64,000 nt of DNA, from the NCBI RefSeq assembly GCF_013394795.1, contig NZ_JABXYU010000001.1, forward strand, positions 186,001 through 250,000, given 5' to 3'. Position numbers and translations under genes: made by a program. The notes under the pieces are model-generated. The model saw only the letters and a program-made list of their open reading frames with translations. It had not been told where the DNA came from and did no database searches. Source of the stretch: Leptotrichia sp. oral taxon 223. Its GTDB lineage: Bacteria; Fusobacteriota; Fusobacteriia; Fusobacteriales; Leptotrichiaceae. Shown in pieces: positions 12,632 to 21,350 of the stretch (positions within the stretch are counted from its first letter, which is position 1; every line of letters begins with the position of its first letter).

Positions 12632-13081
12632 TTATAATTCATCTATTTTTTCTTTTGTTTTTTGTATCAATGCTTCCGCTTCCTTGTAGTCGCCATTTTT
12701 TAATTTTATATATTCAATTTTTTCTACCATTTCATTTAAAATATTCTTTTGACTTTTAACATCTAATAATTTTAACAAATTTAACATCTCGTCATCAATT
12801 TTATAATCTTCTATTTCATCGGACATTTCGCCTTCGTTATCCATATATCCAATTATTTTATATAACTTACTCAAATCTATTTTATAAAAGGCTGATAATG
12901 CCTTCAAATAAAAAGGATTAGGCTTTTTCTTTTGTCCATTTTCAAGCATAAATATTTCCTTCTTATTCAAATTTGTATATGCTGCTACTTGTCCATACGA
13001 ATAATCTTTACTCTCTCTAACTTTTTTTAAATAATCTCCTAATTCTTTTAATTGTTCATCTTTTATTCTAAAATCTGACAT
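12632..13081 (-). CDS. Phage repressor, XRE/HTH_3 family
   Basis: 149 residues from ATG at 13081 (after AAAGGGATGATACTT; the ATG at 13090 touches the ribosome site). The N-terminal helix-turn-helix domain reads LGDYLKKVRESKDYSYGQVA then NLNKKEIFMLENGQKKKPNP, typical of CI-like repressors. The C-terminal 70 residues are acidic and helical and lack a recognisable LexA-type peptidase Ser/Lys pair, so induction would not be by simple self-cleavage. It lies between the two operator-bearing promoters and is read leftward with the VRR-NUC gene. Confidence 0.85.
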   Translation of the reverse strand: MSDFRIKDEQLKELGDYLKKVRESKDYSYGQVAAYTNLNKKEIFMLENGQKKKPNPFYLKALSAFYKIDLSKLYKIIGYMDNEGEMSDEIEDYKIDDEMLNLLKLLDVKSQKNILNEMVEKIEYIKLKNGDYKEAEALIQKTKEKIDEL

Positions 13082-13120
13082 AAGTATCATCCCTTTTTTC
13101 TATAATTATACAATATTTTT

Positions 13121-13238
13121 GTTGTCATTTGATAATTTTTTCAAAAAAGTGTTGACATTTAACAACAAATGATATATAATATCTATGTAAATGAAATTTT
13201 ACAAAAAATTTTTACTTATTTCGTTGTCAAATGTAAAC
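13121..13238 (+). promoter_or_regulatory. Rightward lytic promoter and three operators
   Basis: TTGACA (13152-13157), 17 bp, TATAAT (13175-13180): a consensus promoter. Three related 16-bp sites lie here: GTTGTCATTTGATAAT (13121), GTTGACATTTAACAAC (13151, over the -35) and GTTGTCAAATGTAAAC (13223, inverted). With the exact copy at 11558 there are four sites with consensus GTTGACATTT-A/G-ACAAC. The leftmost one lies in the upstream region of the repressor gene and may set autoregulation. Confidence 0.88.
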
Positions 13239-13564: not shown

Positions 13565-13672
13565 ATGAATTTTGAAGCGTTAGAGATTGTAAACAAAAAC
13601 AACAAAAAGGTTTTAAAAGAAAAGGAAGCTAAGAAATTAGTAAACAGAATTAAAAAATTATTTAAAAAGTAA
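13565..13672 (+). CDS. 35-residue basic early protein
   Basis: ATG after AAGGAGGAATAACA. The peptide is highly basic in its second half (KEKEAKKLVNRIKKLFKK). Too small to assign; the strong ribosome site and operon position support translation. Confidence 0.5.
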   Translation: MNFEALEIVNKNNKKVLKEKEAKKLVNRIKKLFKK

Positions 13673-13840: not shown

Positions 13841-14089
13841 ATGGAATATAAAAAAGAAGAAAAACAAGCAATAGAGGAATTTAGAAAACTTAGAGGAAAT
13901 AATCCTCAAGTATCAGTTACAATCGAACTTGCAAATTATGGATTCTGGCTAAGAGGATTTAAGAAAAAACAGGAATACTTTAAACCTGTTCGATATTCAG
14001 ACTGTGAAGTTTCTTGTCTTTATGGAAAAGAAGATGTATTACAAAAAATTAAGGAATTTAAACTAAAAATAAAAAAATTAGGAGAGTGA
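13841..14089 (+). CDS. Hypothetical early phage protein, 82 aa
   Basis: Good ribosome site (TTAGGAGGCTAA). Mixed alpha/beta composition with an aromatic stretch (ELANYGFWLRGFKKKQEYFK) and a basic C-terminal helix. Not recognised. The stop overlaps the GTG start of the next, frameshifted gene (GTGA), showing coupling. Confidence 0.62.
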   Translation: MEYKKEEKQAIEEFRKLRGNNPQVSVTIELANYGFWLRGFKKKQEYFKPVRYSDCEVSCLYGKEDVLQKIKEFKLKIKKLGE

Positions 14090-14333
14090 TTAAAACGAAT
14101 GAAAAATTAACAAAAGAATTGAACAGCTTACAAGCAACTGAATTAATACAGATTGCAAAAAAGTAAAATCCATTTTCAGAAAATATTATTCTGTTGAGGC
14201 TTATACACTTGACAGGAATAAAAGAATATTAGAGCTGGAAACAAAAGATAGAAATATAATCAAAGTTAAATTTAAAAAGGTAAGAAATAAAAATAAATTT
14301 AAAATAGTGAATTACGAAATTAAGGAGGAATAA
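14086..14333 (+). CDS. Small early gene in two frames joined by an A AAA AAG slippery site (possible -1 frameshift)
   Basis: The first frame starts at a GTG overlapping the previous stop and gives 26 codons ending QIAKK-stop (14164-14166). The last sense codons are GCA AAA AAG, that is the heptamer A AAA AAG in the correct phase for -1 slippage, directly before TAA. The -1 frame then stays open for 56 codons (VKSIFRKYYSVEAYTLDRNK, further on KRILELETKDRNIIKVKFKK) to TAA at 14331, overlapping the start of the next gene. The joined product would be about 81 residues. Either a programmed frameshift or a one-base loss in the A run explains this. Function unknown. Confidence 0.5.
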
Positions 14334-14470
14334 TGACAATAAGAGAACAGCTGGAAAAAGAAATGGATCAAGAAGAAATTAAGGAACTGGAGGAAAACAG
14401 CATTGATGACAACAAAGGATATGATGAAATGGATGATTTTGATACTGACATCAATTTGGATTCAGATTGA
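14333..14470 (+). CDS. 45-residue very acidic early protein
   Basis: ATG overlaps the upstream stop (TAATG) after AAGGAGGAA. The product is extremely acidic (KEMDQEEIKELEENSIDD; DEMDDFDTDINLDSD). Such DNA-mimic-like composition is common in phage anti-host or anti-restriction proteins, but nothing more specific can be read. Confidence 0.55.
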   Translation: MTIREQLEKEMDQEEIKELEENSIDDNKGYDEMDDFDTDINLDSD

Positions 14471-14603
14471 AGTTATCCAAATCAAAGGGCATTGGATATT
14501 TGGTGGCAATGTGGCGTTTCCATTTTTAATGGCTATACTACTTTGGTGGTGTCCTAGAGTGATTAAGGATTTTAAAGGAGAAATATGGAATACAAAGAAA
14601 TAA
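14424..14603 (+). CDS. Small two-TM membrane protein overlapping its neighbours
   Basis: 59 residues in a frame different from the flanking genes: MKWMILILTSIWIQIEVIQI, then a second hydrophobic stretch VAFPFLMAILLWWCP and a basic tail. An AAAGGAT ribosome site precedes the ATG. It overlaps the acidic gene by 47 bp and the exonuclease gene by 19 bp. The hydrophobic profile supports it, the heavy overlap argues for caution. Confidence 0.42.
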   Translation: MKWMILILTSIWIQIEVIQIKGHWIFGGNVAFPFLMAILLWWCPRVIKDFKGEIWNTKK

Positions 14604-15253
14604 GTTATAAAAATGAAGAAGAGTGGCTTGATATACGCAAAAAAGGTATCGGCGGAAGCGATGCAGGAGCAATAATGGGAAAAAATAAATATAAAAATAT
14701 TATTGACGTTTGGAAAGACAAAACTGGAAGAGTACAAAATAATTTCATAAGCCCTGCAGCTCAAAGAGGTAAGAACCTTGAAAAAAATATATTTAATTCC
14801 TACAAAGAGGACCATCCTGATAAAAAAATATTAGAAGTCAATAAAATGTATGTTCATCCAAAATACGACTTCATACGGGCTAATTTGGACGGAGAAATTG
14901 TTTATCAGGATAAAAAAGGAATACTGGAAATAAAAACAACTACAATTAACAAATGGAACAAATATATCGAAGAATGGCAAAATAACATTCCTGAAAGCTA
15001 TTTATATCAAATTTTACATTACTTTTTAGTAACTGGCTATGAATATGCCGTATTGGTTGCTGAAATAAAATTTGAATGTTTTAAAAGCGAAAATACAACA
15101 CCGTTCGATCTAGATAAAAGATTGCAGACAATTGTAATCAATAGAACCGATTGGGAAGATGAAATACAGGAACTTTTAAATAAAGAAATTGAATTTTGGG
15201 AATGTGTCAAAAACGATACAGAGCCAAGAATGATAAAAACTTATGGAGGTTAG
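14585..15253 (+). CDS. YqaJ-type phage exonuclease (lambda exonuclease fold)
   Basis: 222 residues. The N-terminus has RKKGIGGSDAGAIMGKNKYK, the YqaJ signature. The active site follows as NLDGEI and GILEIKTTT (D...E-x-K), with YLYQILHYFLVTG (the Q-x2-H-Y motif) after it. It resects double-stranded ends 5'-3' to make 3' overhangs for the RecT annealase two genes downstream. Start by AAAGGAGAAAT. Together with DUF1351 and RecT it forms the phage recombination block. Confidence 0.9.
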   Translation: MEYKEISYKNEEEWLDIRKKGIGGSDAGAIMGKNKYKNIIDVWKDKTGRVQNNFISPAAQRGKNLEKNIFNSYKEDHPDKKILEVNKMYVHPKYDFIRANLDGEIVYQDKKGILEIKTTTINKWNKYIEEWQNNIPESYLYQILHYFLVTGYEYAVLVAEIKFECFKSENTTPFDLDKRLQTIVINRTDWEDEIQELLNKEIEFWECVKNDTEPRMIKTYGG

Positions 15254-16448: not shown

Positions 16449-17330
16449 ATGGCAGGAACTTTAATGAATCCAAAAAAACAAACAAAAGGAACAGTGGGTA
16501 CAACTACACTAAAATCAATGATAAACGACGAAAGAACAAAAAATAAATTTAAAGAATTACTAGGAAATAAGGCTGCTGGATTCTTAACTTCACTACTAAA
16601 TACTACAAATGGAAATGCACAGCTACAAGAAGCAGAACCACAAAGCATTTTGAAGGCTGGAGCAATAGCTGCAACATTAGATTTACCAATCGATCCAAAT
16701 TTAGGATTTGCCTATGTAGTGCCTTACAAGAACAAATATAAAGACAGTTATGGTAACTGGCAAGAAAAAAATGAGGCACAATTTCAATTAGGCTACAAAG
16801 GATTTATACAACTAGCAATCAGAACTGGACAGTATAAAAAAATTAATGTTACAGAACTTTATGAGGGGCAGTTTGAAAGCTATGATCCAATTACTGATGA
16901 ACTAAAATACAATCTTGGCGGAAAAATAAGTGATGAAGTAACTCACTATATCGCGTATTTCCAAACTATGAATGGATTTGAGAAATATAATGTAATGAGC
17001 AAGGAAGAAATAAGGGAACACGCTAAAAAGTTCAGCAAGACGTTTTTAAGTAGATTTTCAAGCTGGCAAACTAACTTCGACAGTATGGCGAAGAAAACGG
17101 TATTAAAACTACTATTAAGCAAATTTGGAATACTAAGCATTGAAATGCAGACAGCACAAAAAGTAGATCAGGCTGTTATAAAAGAAGTTGAGCCAAACGG
17201 AAATGTAGAAGTCGAATACGTAGACAGTCCTGGCAATGCAAGCGATATTATTGAAGAAGAAACAGCAAATAACGATGTTCAAAGCGATAATGAAATCGTT
17301 GAGAATTTTAATTCAGAAGATTTATTTTAA
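16449..17330 (+). CDS. recT: RecT-family single-strand annealing protein
   Basis: 293 residues. The RecT core is clear: ILKAGAIAATLDLPIDPNLG, FAYVVPYKNK, AQFQLGYKGFIQLAIRTGQY and MAKKTVLKLLLSKFGILS. The C-terminus is an acidic tail as in other RecT proteins. It coats single-stranded DNA left by the YqaJ exonuclease and promotes annealing and strand exchange. Start after AAAGGAGATGAAATAAA. Confidence 0.93.
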   Translation: MAGTLMNPKKQTKGTVGTTTLKSMINDERTKNKFKELLGNKAAGFLTSLLNTTNGNAQLQEAEPQSILKAGAIAATLDLPIDPNLGFAYVVPYKNKYKDSYGNWQEKNEAQFQLGYKGFIQLAIRTGQYKKINVTELYEGQFESYDPITDELKYNLGGKISDEVTHYIAYFQTMNGFEKYNVMSKEEIREHAKKFSKTFLSRFSSWQTNFDSMAKKTVLKLLLSKFGILSIEMQTAQKVDQAVIKEVEPNGNVEVEYVDSPGNASDIIEEETANNDVQSDNEIVENFNSEDLF

Positions 17331-18457: not shown

Positions 18458-18633
18458 TGAAAAAGTGGTTTTATGAATGTGATGATATTATGAAAATAAT
18501 TGGTGTTAAAGAGGGCAAGGCATATAAGATTATAAGAAAATTGAACGAAGAATTGAGAGAAAAAGGATTTTTAACGCAGCAAGGTAAAGTAAATGCTAAA
18601 TACTTCAATGAACGTTACAATATAGGACAGTGA
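18457..18633 (+). CDS. Excisionase-like DNA-binding protein
   Basis: 58 residues from the second of two adjacent ATGs, after GGAGGAATG. It reads KKWFYECDDIMKIIGVKEGK, then AYKIIRKLNEELREKGFLTQ and a basic end with KYFNERYNI. This is the pattern of the small excisionase/Xis-like helix-turn-helix proteins of phages and ICEs of low-GC hosts. It lies directly upstream of the integrase and overlaps its extended frame, the normal xis-int order. It would steer integrase toward excision. Confidence 0.75.
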   Translation: MKKWFYECDDIMKIIGVKEGKAYKIIRKLNEELREKGFLTQQGKVNAKYFNERYNIGQ

Positions 18634-18638
18634 TTTTT

Positions 18639-19688
18639 ATGCCAGCATATAAGGATGAAAAAAGCAAAAAATGGTATGTTTCTTTTTATGTAAAAGAAAA
18701 TGGAATTTCTAAAAAAGTTAAAAAAATGGGATTTAATAAAAAGCAAGAAGCAATGGAGTATGAAAGAAATTATATAAACTCTTTTGTGTCTGATACTGAA
18801 ATAACATTTGAAAATCTATATAAATCTTATATGGACGATCAAAAAAATAGATTAAAACCAAGTACATTAGAAAGTAAAACATATATTTTCAATAAAAAGA
18901 TATTACCATTTTTTCAAAAATATAAAATTAAAGAAATAACACCTTTATTGATTAGGAAATGGCAAAATGAACTAATAAAAGAAAACTTTGCTCAAACATA
19001 TTTAAGAGCCATCCATGAACAACTTGTTGCTATATTAAATTATGCGGTTAAATTTTACAATTTAAACAAAAATCCTTGTTCAGCAGCTGGAAGAATTGGA
19101 AAAAAGAATGCTGGCGAAATGAATATATGGACATTAGAAGAATTTAAACAATTTATAAAGGCAATTAATCATAAAAAAGAAGCCGTGGTTGGATTCAATA
19201 TATTGTTTTATACAGGTATGAGAGTAGGCGAAATGTTAGCACTAACGATTTCAGATATAGATTTTGAGAAATGTAAAATAAGGATAAATAAAACTTTTCA
19301 GAGAATAAAAAGAACTGATGTTATATCAACACCAAAAACTCCTAAGTCCAAAAGAACTATTGATTGTCCTAAATTTGTTATAGACATTATACAAGACTAC
19401 ATCAAAGTATTGTATAAGCCTACGTCAAAAACTAGACTATTTGAGGGGTTTACAAAGTCTAAATTTCAAAACGATGTGAACGTCTATTCTCGGAAAGCCA
19501 ACTTGAAAAAAATCAGAGTTCACGATTTAAGACATTCCCACGCAACTTTTTTATTATCGAAAGGTGTTAATATAGTATCACTTTCAAGAAGATTAGGGCA
19601 CGAAAGAGTATCAACTACTTTAGATATATATTCACACGTTCTAAAAGAAGACGATGATTTAATTAAAGATATACTAAACAATTTATAG
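18639..19688 (+). CDS. int: Phage integrase (tyrosine recombinase)
   Basis: 349 residues. An N-terminal AP2-like arm-binding domain (MPAYKDEKSKKWYVSFYVKE), a SAM-like core-binding domain (about 60-145) and a C-terminal catalytic domain with all key residues: Arg in GMRVGEMLAL, His-x-x-Arg in VHDLRHSHATFL, His in LGHERVSTT and the nucleophile Tyr in DIYSHV. It integrates and excises the prophage. ATG at 18639 is preferred over the GTG at 18630, which overlaps the excisionase. It is the last gene of the rightward operon, next to the phage end. Confidence 0.95.
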   Translation: MPAYKDEKSKKWYVSFYVKENGISKKVKKMGFNKKQEAMEYERNYINSFVSDTEITFENLYKSYMDDQKNRLKPSTLESKTYIFNKKILPFFQKYKIKEITPLLIRKWQNELIKENFAQTYLRAIHEQLVAILNYAVKFYNLNKNPCSAAGRIGKKNAGEMNIWTLEEFKQFIKAINHKKEAVVGFNILFYTGMRVGEMLALTISDIDFEKCKIRINKTFQRIKRTDVISTPKTPKSKRTIDCPKFVIDIIQDYIKVLYKPTSKTRLFEGFTKSKFQNDVNVYSRKANLKKIRVHDLRHSHATFLLSKGVNIVSLSRRLGHERVSTTLDIYSHVLKEDDDLIKDILNNL

Positions 19689-19999: not shown

Positions 20000-20563
20000 T
20001 CATTCAAAATCCTTATTTGTAAAGTCACATCTGTTTAATTGTTCCATCGCATGTTTTCTTATCATTTCTTCCTCACTTTGCAACAATAGTTCCAGTTTTT
20101 CTTTCGCCTTAGGAGTATTTATATCTCCTAAAGCAAAACAGCATTTTCTCACTAATGCAAAATTATCATCCCAACGGTATTTTTCAAAATTCGAAGTTGC
20201 TAGTTCATATATACTATCTATTGTTTGTGGTAAGTGAAAACCTTGAAAATATGATGCTATAGTTTCATGTTCTTCATGAAATTCTTCTTTTCCTAATTTA
20301 ATATAATCTTCAATAAATTCAGATCTATCATATAATTTAAAAAAACTAATTGAAAGCATCAAATTATATATTTCAGATGAATTTTTCTTTTGACATGCTA
20401 TTTTTATTCCCTCTTTTATTATATTTATTTTTTCTTCATCTGTAACATCAGAGAAATTTGAAATTAATTCCTCATTTCTCAGTTGAAAATTTACAACATG
20501 AGTTTTTTTACTTAATTCAAACAATTTCTTTAGTTCATTTTGGTATTTTGCTGATATTTTCAT
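20000..20563 (-). CDS. HEAT-repeat immunity-like protein
   Basis: 187 residues, all helical, with HEAT-like repeats (IDSIYELATSNFEKYRWDDN; ALVRKCCFALGDINTPKAKE; MIRKHAMEQLNRCDF). Its ATG overlaps the stop of a small ORF that looks like the tip of a polymorphic toxin. A second gene with a 41-residue identical core lies upstream. Small HEAT-repeat proteins placed right behind toxin tips are typical immunity proteins of contact-dependent or polymorphic toxin systems; the role is inferred from this layout. Confidence 0.68.
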   Translation of the reverse strand: MKISAKYQNELKKLFELSKKTHVVNFQLRNEELISNFSDVTDEEKINIIKEGIKIACQKKNSSEIYNLMLSISFFKLYDRSEFIEDYIKLGKEEFHEEHETIASYFQGFHLPQTIDSIYELATSNFEKYRWDDNFALVRKCCFALGDINTPKAKEKLELLLQSEEEMIRKHAMEQLNRCDFTNKDFE

Positions 20564-20754
20564 TATTCATTCTCCTTTATAAATTCATACTTTTTCAAAT
20601 TCTGATTAAATATTTCTAATCCTTTCCCTCCTTCTTGTCCTAGTTGTATATGTATTGCATTTTCTCTAGTTACTTTATTCGCCTCTTCTTTAAAAGAAAT
20701 CATTTTTTTAACATCTTCAGTCTTCTCACTCAAAATCCTTATTTGTGAAATCAC
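20563..20754 (-). pseudogene. Orphan C-terminal tip of a polymorphic toxin
   Basis: 63 codons, of which the last part (HIQLGQEGGKGLEIFNQNLK) resembles the stub before the other immunity gene (INLGKGSGLEIFNQ). The frame begins inside the end of the upstream immunity gene and lacks a ribosome site. The stop overlaps the start of the next immunity gene (TAATG). It is read as the displaced or truncated end of a toxin. Confidence 0.55.
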
Positions 20755-21262
20755 GTCTATTCAACTCTCTTTTTGCTGATTCCCTTAAGTCTTGTGTCTC
20801 ATTTAAATTATTAGCCAAAAGTTCTAATTTTTCTTTCGCCTTAGGAGTGTTTATGTCTCCCAAAGCAAAACAGCATTTTCTGACTAGTGCAAAATTATCA
20901 TCCCAACGGTATTTTTCAAAATTCGAAGTTGCTAATTCATAAAGACATTCTACCGTAGACGGTAACTCCATTTCCATGAAATAAATAGCAATATCCTCAT
21001 GTCTTTCATGCCATTCTTCTTTTGAAATCTTACATAAGATATTTATGAACTCCTCAGAATACAAATCAAATGTAAATATTAACCAAAATAAAATATCTAA
21101 TTTTGTTTTATTTTTAAATAAATAGGCTTTTTCTAATTCTTCTTTTATAAATTTTATATCATCAATAAAATAATTTTTTTTCAATTTGTTTACTGATATT
21201 TTTTTATCTAAATATTTTTCTAGCAAATTTTTAGCTTCATTGAAATCATTTATTTTTTCCAT
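20726..21262 (-). CDS. HEAT-repeat immunity-like protein, paralogue
   Basis: 178 residues from ATG at 21262 (after GAGGAGATATTCATC). N-terminal half unlike its neighbour, C-terminal half nearly the same (CLYELATSNFEKYRWDDNFA; LVRKCCFALGDINTPKAKEK), pointing to gene duplication with conversion of the core, or selection for a shared fold with a variable recognition half. It follows a toxin-tip stub and so belongs to the same cassette array. Confidence 0.68.
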   Translation of the reverse strand: MEKINDFNEAKNLLEKYLDKKISVNKLKKNYFIDDIKFIKEELEKAYLFKNKTKLDILFWLIFTFDLYSEEFINILCKISKEEWHERHEDIAIYFMEMELPSTVECLYELATSNFEKYRWDDNFALVRKCCFALGDINTPKAKEKLELLANNLNETQDLRESAKRELNRRDFTNKDFE

Positions 21263-21350
21263 GATGAATATCTCCTCGTTTAACATTTATCTGTTTAATC
21301 CGTTGATTAAATATCTCTAAACCACTACCTTTACCTAAATTTATAGTTAT
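21246..21350 (-). pseudogene. Second toxin-tip stub
   Basis: A 34-codon open stretch without start codon: INLGKGSGLEIFNQRIKQIN followed by a basic end, closing inside the start of the immunity gene. Shares I-x-LG-x-G-GLEIFNQ with the stub at 20563. Confidence 0.55.

Follow-up and report, generated by a model that had tools for sequence, protein, structure and literature searches.

A small early prophage gene of Leptotrichia apparently split at A_AAA_AAG: a candidate site of -1 ribosomal frameshifting

The window analysed here, a 64,000-nucleotide stretch of the genome of Leptotrichia sp. oral taxon 223 (G000:C1:186001-250000), contains the right part of a prophage, including a gene (985-2445) that, judging from its sequence, we take to be terminase-like. 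Between the repressor and the RecE/RecT genes sits a probable small gene that spans 14086-14333 on the plus strand once its two parts, which lie in different reading frames, are joined (Table 1). The acidic 45-aa ORF that follows it is overlapped in another frame by a hydrophobic ORF (14403-14603), and ORFs like these two are present in several related prophages. A 35-aa lysine-rich ORF further upstream (13565-13672), with the end AAA AAG TAA/TAG, recurs ahead of related exonucleases in several congeners. Just past the integrase, the adjacent minus-strand ORFs 20000-20563 and 20726-21286 have C-termini that are almost the same over one stretch (FEKYRWDDNFALVRKCCFALGDINTPKAKEKLELL) and form a tandem duplication.

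Table 1 Features of the split gene and its surroundings (window positions)
Feature	Position	Strand	Basis or remark
HTH repressor	12632-13090	-	
Sigma-70-type TTGACA-17-TATAAT before the rightward early genes	13152..13180	+	perfect consensus match only
Preceding 82-aa gene, no assigned function	13841..14089	+	95% identical in the G004 prophage
Zero-frame ORF, 26 codons, GTG start, ends AAA AAG TAA	14086..14166	+	sequence reading
TGA closing the -1 frame upstream	14139..14141	+	identical in 3/3 copies
Slippery heptamer A_AAA_AAG	14157..14163	+	identical in 3/3 copies
-1 frame part, 56 sense codons and TAA 14331-14333	14163..14333	+	from GTA 14163
Predicted 10-pair hairpin, -10 kcal/mol, 25 nt past the heptamer	14189..14217	+	kept in 3/3 copies
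Stretch matched by a host spacer, 6 mismatches of 37	14193..14229	-	type I-B CRISPR array G000:C4:229240-229464
Following 45-aa acidic gene, start overlapping the -1 stop	14333..14470	+	ORF reading
RecE-like exonuclease with YqaJ domain	14585-15253	rightward	
RecT	16449-17330		
Tyrosine integrase	18630-19688		

The zero-frame part starts at a GTG that shares bases with the TGA of the preceding gene (GTGA) and encodes the peptide VIKTNEKLTKELNSLQATELIQIAKK. Its last codons are GCA (14155-57), AAA (14158-60) and AAG (14161-63), followed by TAA (14164-66). An earlier note on this DNA had placed the heptamer in the exact phase for -1 slippage, with the zero-frame stop directly behind it and the -1 frame open for 56 codons up to the start of the next gene, and all three observations were borne out. 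Of the two product lengths it gave, 26 residues was correct and 81 was off by one, as the joined product has 26 + 56 = 82 residues, with a predicted junction reading ...LIQIAKKVKSIFRKYYSVE. The -1 frame terminates within TAATG, where its stop shares bases with the ATG that opens the next gene. At the other end, 22 nt separate the upstream -1 stop from the zero-frame stop, and because that TGA closes the frame, the -1 ORF has no ATG, GTG or TTG ahead of the slip site or of its conserved part. Among the eight codon pairs listed for the overlap of the two frames, AAA AAG was the only one with near-full re-pairing in the -1 frame (three and two of three bases). Since the -1 frame lacks a standard start, the plausible routes into it are a -1 slip of the ribosome, a slip of the polymerase on the A6 run or an unusual initiation.

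A DNA search of the same genome and 12 congeners found a second copy at C1:954960-955222 (94% DNA identity) and another in a prophage of a congener (G004, 95%), making three non-identical copies from two species-level genomes. The TGA, the heptamer, the adjacent TAA and the open -1 frame were kept in all three, the 25-nt overlap of the two frames was invariant and the A run was six long throughout. In each copy the stop of the -1 frame overlaps the start codon that follows, the junction reading TAATG in the window and L002 and ATGA in L006; the gene end of L006 differs by a 3-nt indel and several changes that leave the -1 frame intact. The copies occupy two phage types, one with RecE-like, RecT and tyrosine integrase genes (the window) and one with ERF, SSB and serine recombinase genes (L119); in this second prophage a DNA methylase gene lies upstream of the copy, and the ERF recombinase, SSB and serine recombinase genes follow in that order. 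The serine recombinase gene (L119:12840-14195) ends beside a tRNA cluster (tRNA-Leu at 14220). Homopolymers such as this A run are error-prone in some chemistries, and a mistake of sequencing or assembly might be suspected, but the same six A's are seen in both copies of this genome and in the G004 copy; with the arrangement recurring in two related prophages, we regard such an error as very unlikely.

Beyond these copies, tblastn (E 1) against 50,697 phage and 72,556 plasmid records found no further homologue, and neither did a search of GTDB genome contigs. The single match among viral contigs (IMG/VR) is identical to G004 over 3256 nt, so the two are not independent and were counted once. 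A search of the class gave matches in 7 of 98 genomes, and those in two (G000 and G004) were accepted. L065 and L067 were dropped because their sequences read as what we take to be UvrC; L066 and L068, with matches in frames of a length similar to those of L065 and L067, were not accepted, nor were the stop-laden L092 and several weak DNA and pattern matches, five of which had translations without similarity. The heptamer and stop, which the earlier note had suggested following in homologues, are kept in 3/3 copies, yet these are 94-95% identical and 96 of the 98 class genomes have no accepted homologue. The genomes, phage, plasmid and viral contigs searched yielded neither a copy whose A run is one base longer or whose frame is continuous, nor a homologue combining a continuous frame with the lack of a slippery site. 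A search for prophages with related exonucleases returned 20 loci, of which 15 were looked at, seven of them as reverse complements, with L100, L101 and L107 outside that set of seven; those examined carry other genes in the slot, such as an apparently antirepressor-type gene in L106, and tblastn with the two gene parts against both strands of all collected loci gave no further copy. The best PHROG match of the joined product was phrog_19219 (E 0.17); a search for this family in the 98 genomes gave no match, and its controls likewise gave none, which leaves this search without weight. Rfam had no match within the window.

To assess coding in the -1 frame we counted substitutions over the first 150 nt of the -1 part, leaving out the stretch past the indel. 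The three copies differ by 11 changes, six synonymous and five nonsynonymous in the -1 frame; read in frame 0, the same changes would be one synonymous and ten nonsynonymous, one of them creating a stop. Random placement of the changes in a neutral simulation yielded six or more synonymous ones with P 0.029. For the window and L006 the -1 frame counts are 6 synonymous changes over 28.5 sites and 4 nonsynonymous over 118.5 sites. The upstream 26 codons, compared between the window and L002, have two synonymous and eight nonsynonymous changes, with no purifying selection seen. Because the copies are 94-95% identical in DNA, few independent events are visible among them.

A CRISPR spacer of the host offers a further test of the reading frame at low cost: it preserves part of a gene variant that is otherwise unseen, with differences that are mostly silent in the -1 frame. 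The 37-nt spacer, which came up as a DNA match within the same genome, is the middle one of an array with four repeats (C4:229240-229464), which lies beside the type I-B cas genes Cas8b, Cas7b, Cas5b and Cas3b. Of the four complete codons that differ, three are synonymous in the -1 frame (GTT>GTC, TAT>TAC, AGG>AGA) and one is nonsynonymous (ACA>ATG), whereas four of five changes would be nonsynonymous in frame 0. The two arrays of the genome (G000:C4:218751-220209 and 229240-229464), both beside type I-B cas genes, hold 25 spacers in total; in the long array, spacers 1-2 recur as spacers 3-4. Four of the 25 (three distinct) match the early region of this prophage, at window positions 14193, 15666 and 16414, with 1, 4 and 6 mismatches (the 6 being at 14193), and only 1 of 125 shuffled spacers matched any target at <=8 mismatches, a contrast that strengthens the case for a true match. 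Host spacers set against a resident prophage in this way amount to imperfect self-targeting. With the spacer variant added to the copies, 10 of 18 changes were synonymous where 4.7 would be expected (P 0.012); taken by itself the spacer falls short of significance (P 0.15), and the slip site lies outside its match. Together, these counts point to a conserved, coding-like -1 frame, with a selection signal that is modest.

The predicted structure is consistent with such a region. AlphaFold2 gave the -1 ORF at 14142-14330 (63 residues from ATT 14142) a mean pLDDT of 83.7 and a pTM of 0.66, with a fold of one helix and four strands. The slip point falls inside the predicted helix, and the zero-frame residues would therefore probably extend it. 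At E 0.001, Foldseek matched the predicted fold to nothing in PDB or BFVD. The top rows of VIA-align were VirB8/TraE and cystatin-like folds at Z 7-8.5, a range stated as common, and for that reason no family or function was assigned from them.

The substitution data also bear on the view that the split is an inherited lesion, in which a base was lost from the A run in a common ancestor of the three copies, leaving the -1 frame as the dying remnant of a once continuous gene. The earlier note had remarked that a one-base loss in the run would look the same, and we agree: such a change would give exactly this picture. The copies are closely related, selection has left a modest signal and the N-terminal codons seem free of constraint. 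On the other hand, no stop has been gained in the -1 frame over 11 changes and the synonymous excess is kept, the frame has absorbed a 3-nt indel while keeping its end at the start codon of the following gene, and three prophages on two backbones carry the split, with no continuous-frame copy seen in the collections searched. We consider a lesion unlikely on balance, though it retains real plausibility because there are only three close copies. An independent start for the -1 ORF, at ATT 14142 or ATT 14172 and perhaps through re-initiation after TAA 14164, is a good deal less credible still. Both ATT codons occur in 3/3 copies and the second lies just past the zero-frame stop, but AUU starts are rare and a Shine-Dalgarno (SD)-like sequence was not found in the 20 nt ahead of ATT 14142.

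We compared the slip site with chance expectation, using 100 third-order Markov versions of the 64-kb window. An ORF closed by A_AAA_AAG and a stop, with a -1 continuation of 56 codons or more, arose in 3 of the 100 versions; this rate of 0.03 per 64 kb is uncorrected for the site having been picked by eye from 64 kb. The window itself has 12 ends of the form X_XXY_YYZ before a stop among its 716 ORFs of at least 20 aa; two of these are A_AAA_AAG, and a long -1 extension is found only at 14157-14163. In phase, the heptamer occurs 12 times in the 16,321 codons of 48 non-overlapping window ORFs, so a random seven-codon overlap would hold it with P ~0.005, likewise uncorrected for a site chosen by eye from 64 kb.

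A slippery motif is a mandatory component of -1 frameshifting (PMC4066793), and one stands in phase at this frame transition. The host carries one tRNA-Lys(CUU) gene (G000:C1:302230-302303) and two for tRNA-Lys(UUU), and so differs from the single tRNA-Lys(UUU) associated with dnaX/IS911-type signals. The tRNA-Lys(CUU) gene stands alone and is the top-scoring tRNA of the genome. In E. coli, which has a single tRNA-Lys, A_AAA_AAG slips very readily, and a dedicated reader of AAG has been suggested to disfavour the slip (PMC5009743); in this host, with its dedicated tRNA-Lys(CUU), AAG should be less prone to slippage. Five SD patterns were sought within 40 nt upstream of the heptamer in the window copy and none was present, and no stem of note started 3-12 nt past it in that copy, as judged without a dedicated pseudoknot program. 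The best stems starting at that distance had -3.4 to -4.0 kcal/mol (window and L002), and a fold of -13.1 in L006, starting 11 nt downstream, merely encloses a distant hairpin. That hairpin-forming potential is predicted in all copies (Table 1), but at 25 nt from the heptamer it is too far away to be a classical stimulator, and the 81-nt segment that holds it is not unusual for its composition (z-score -1.4). From the tRNA set and the absence of stimulators we argue that slippage here is probably of low efficiency, as in some tailed-phage frameshifts without evident stimulators (PMC5009743).

The A run at the junction would also allow RNA polymerase to add an A, with ordinary translation of the joined frame to follow, and this route has been tied to Thermus, which has two tRNA-Lys (PMC5009743). 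The run is, however, six long in 3/3 copies, below the usual eight or nine: slippage-prone runs are described as mostly nine A or T (PMC1088944) or as more than seven A (PMC3711429). Transcriptional slippage therefore seems improbable to us.

Our interpretation is based on the sequence, its phase, its conservation, the stop-start overlaps and the predicted fold of the -1 part. We think it fairly probable that 14086-14333 is one small early prophage gene that needs a change of frame at the A run, with ribosomal slippage at the heptamer as the most likely route into the -1 frame; from these features we infer the slip, its probably low level and any role of the joined protein. In this scheme most ribosomes would terminate at TAA 14164 after 26 residues. 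In a minority, the two tRNA-Lys on AAA AAG would re-pair one base back on AAA AAA, before or during entry of the stop into the A site, and these ribosomes would read on through GTA AAA TCC to give the 82-residue protein, in which the helix would continue across the junction into the four strands. Their termination would fall on the next gene's start codon, and they could aid translation of that gene. The programmed -1 frameshift that the earlier note had put forward is upheld in part: the conserved, coding-like -1 frame and a site and stop kept in 3/3 copies speak for it, whereas the tRNA set and the missing stimulators argue for a low efficiency. More speculatively, the split gene is a candidate sensor, in which slippage would rise only when tRNA-Lys(CUU), as the strict reader of AAG, runs short, is cleaved or loses out to tRNA-Lys(UUU), for example under a tRNA-Lys-cleaving defence, and only then would the folded 82-residue protein and the coupling to the next gene appear; we give this idea little chance of being right.

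Genome-wide sets of frame transitions of the kind to which this gene would belong have been described (PMC4066793, PMC3711429), and annotated phage cases are strongly those of tail chaperones (PMC10885494). In titles and abstract openings of the literature on Leptotrichia prophage frameshifts, early phage genes and small phage proteins, the gene was not found. If the frameshift reading is right, an early, non-structural gene of the lysogeny region would join known cases that come mostly from tail, capsid and transposase genes; with two tRNA-Lys types in the host and no evident stimulators, it would also probe the minimal requirements of a -1 signal. Gene callers that expect one open frame would miss such a split gene.

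Among known systems, E. coli dnaX has the same heptamer in the same phase, with two tRNA-Lys re-pairing. In dnaX an SD precedes the heptamer and a hairpin follows it (PMC3711429), neither of which was found at the candidate site, and E. coli has a single tRNA-Lys (PMC5009743) where this host has two types; the dnaX shift shortens its product, whereas the shift proposed here would lengthen it. Transposases of the IS3/IS911 type resemble the candidate in having a short zero-frame ORF and a longer -1 fusion at the same kind of heptamer, and their shifts use an SD and/or a stem-loop or pseudoknot (PMC4066793). The candidate gene has no transposase similarity; a host search for an IS transposase as comparator gave one match, with an internal stop. 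The tail assembly chaperones G/GT are, like the candidate, phage genes with two products from one start, and some lack evident stimulators (PMC5009743). They are late structural genes beside the tape measure, whereas the candidate is a short early gene, and a tail chaperone identity was rejected given its neighbours (HTH repressor, RecE-like exonuclease and RecT) and the lack of a PHROG match better than E 0.17. GeneTack clusters share with the candidate a conserved disrupted frame at an A-rich heptamer and a longer fusion (PMC3711429, PMC4066793); in contrast to them, it comprises three copies only and belongs to no described family.
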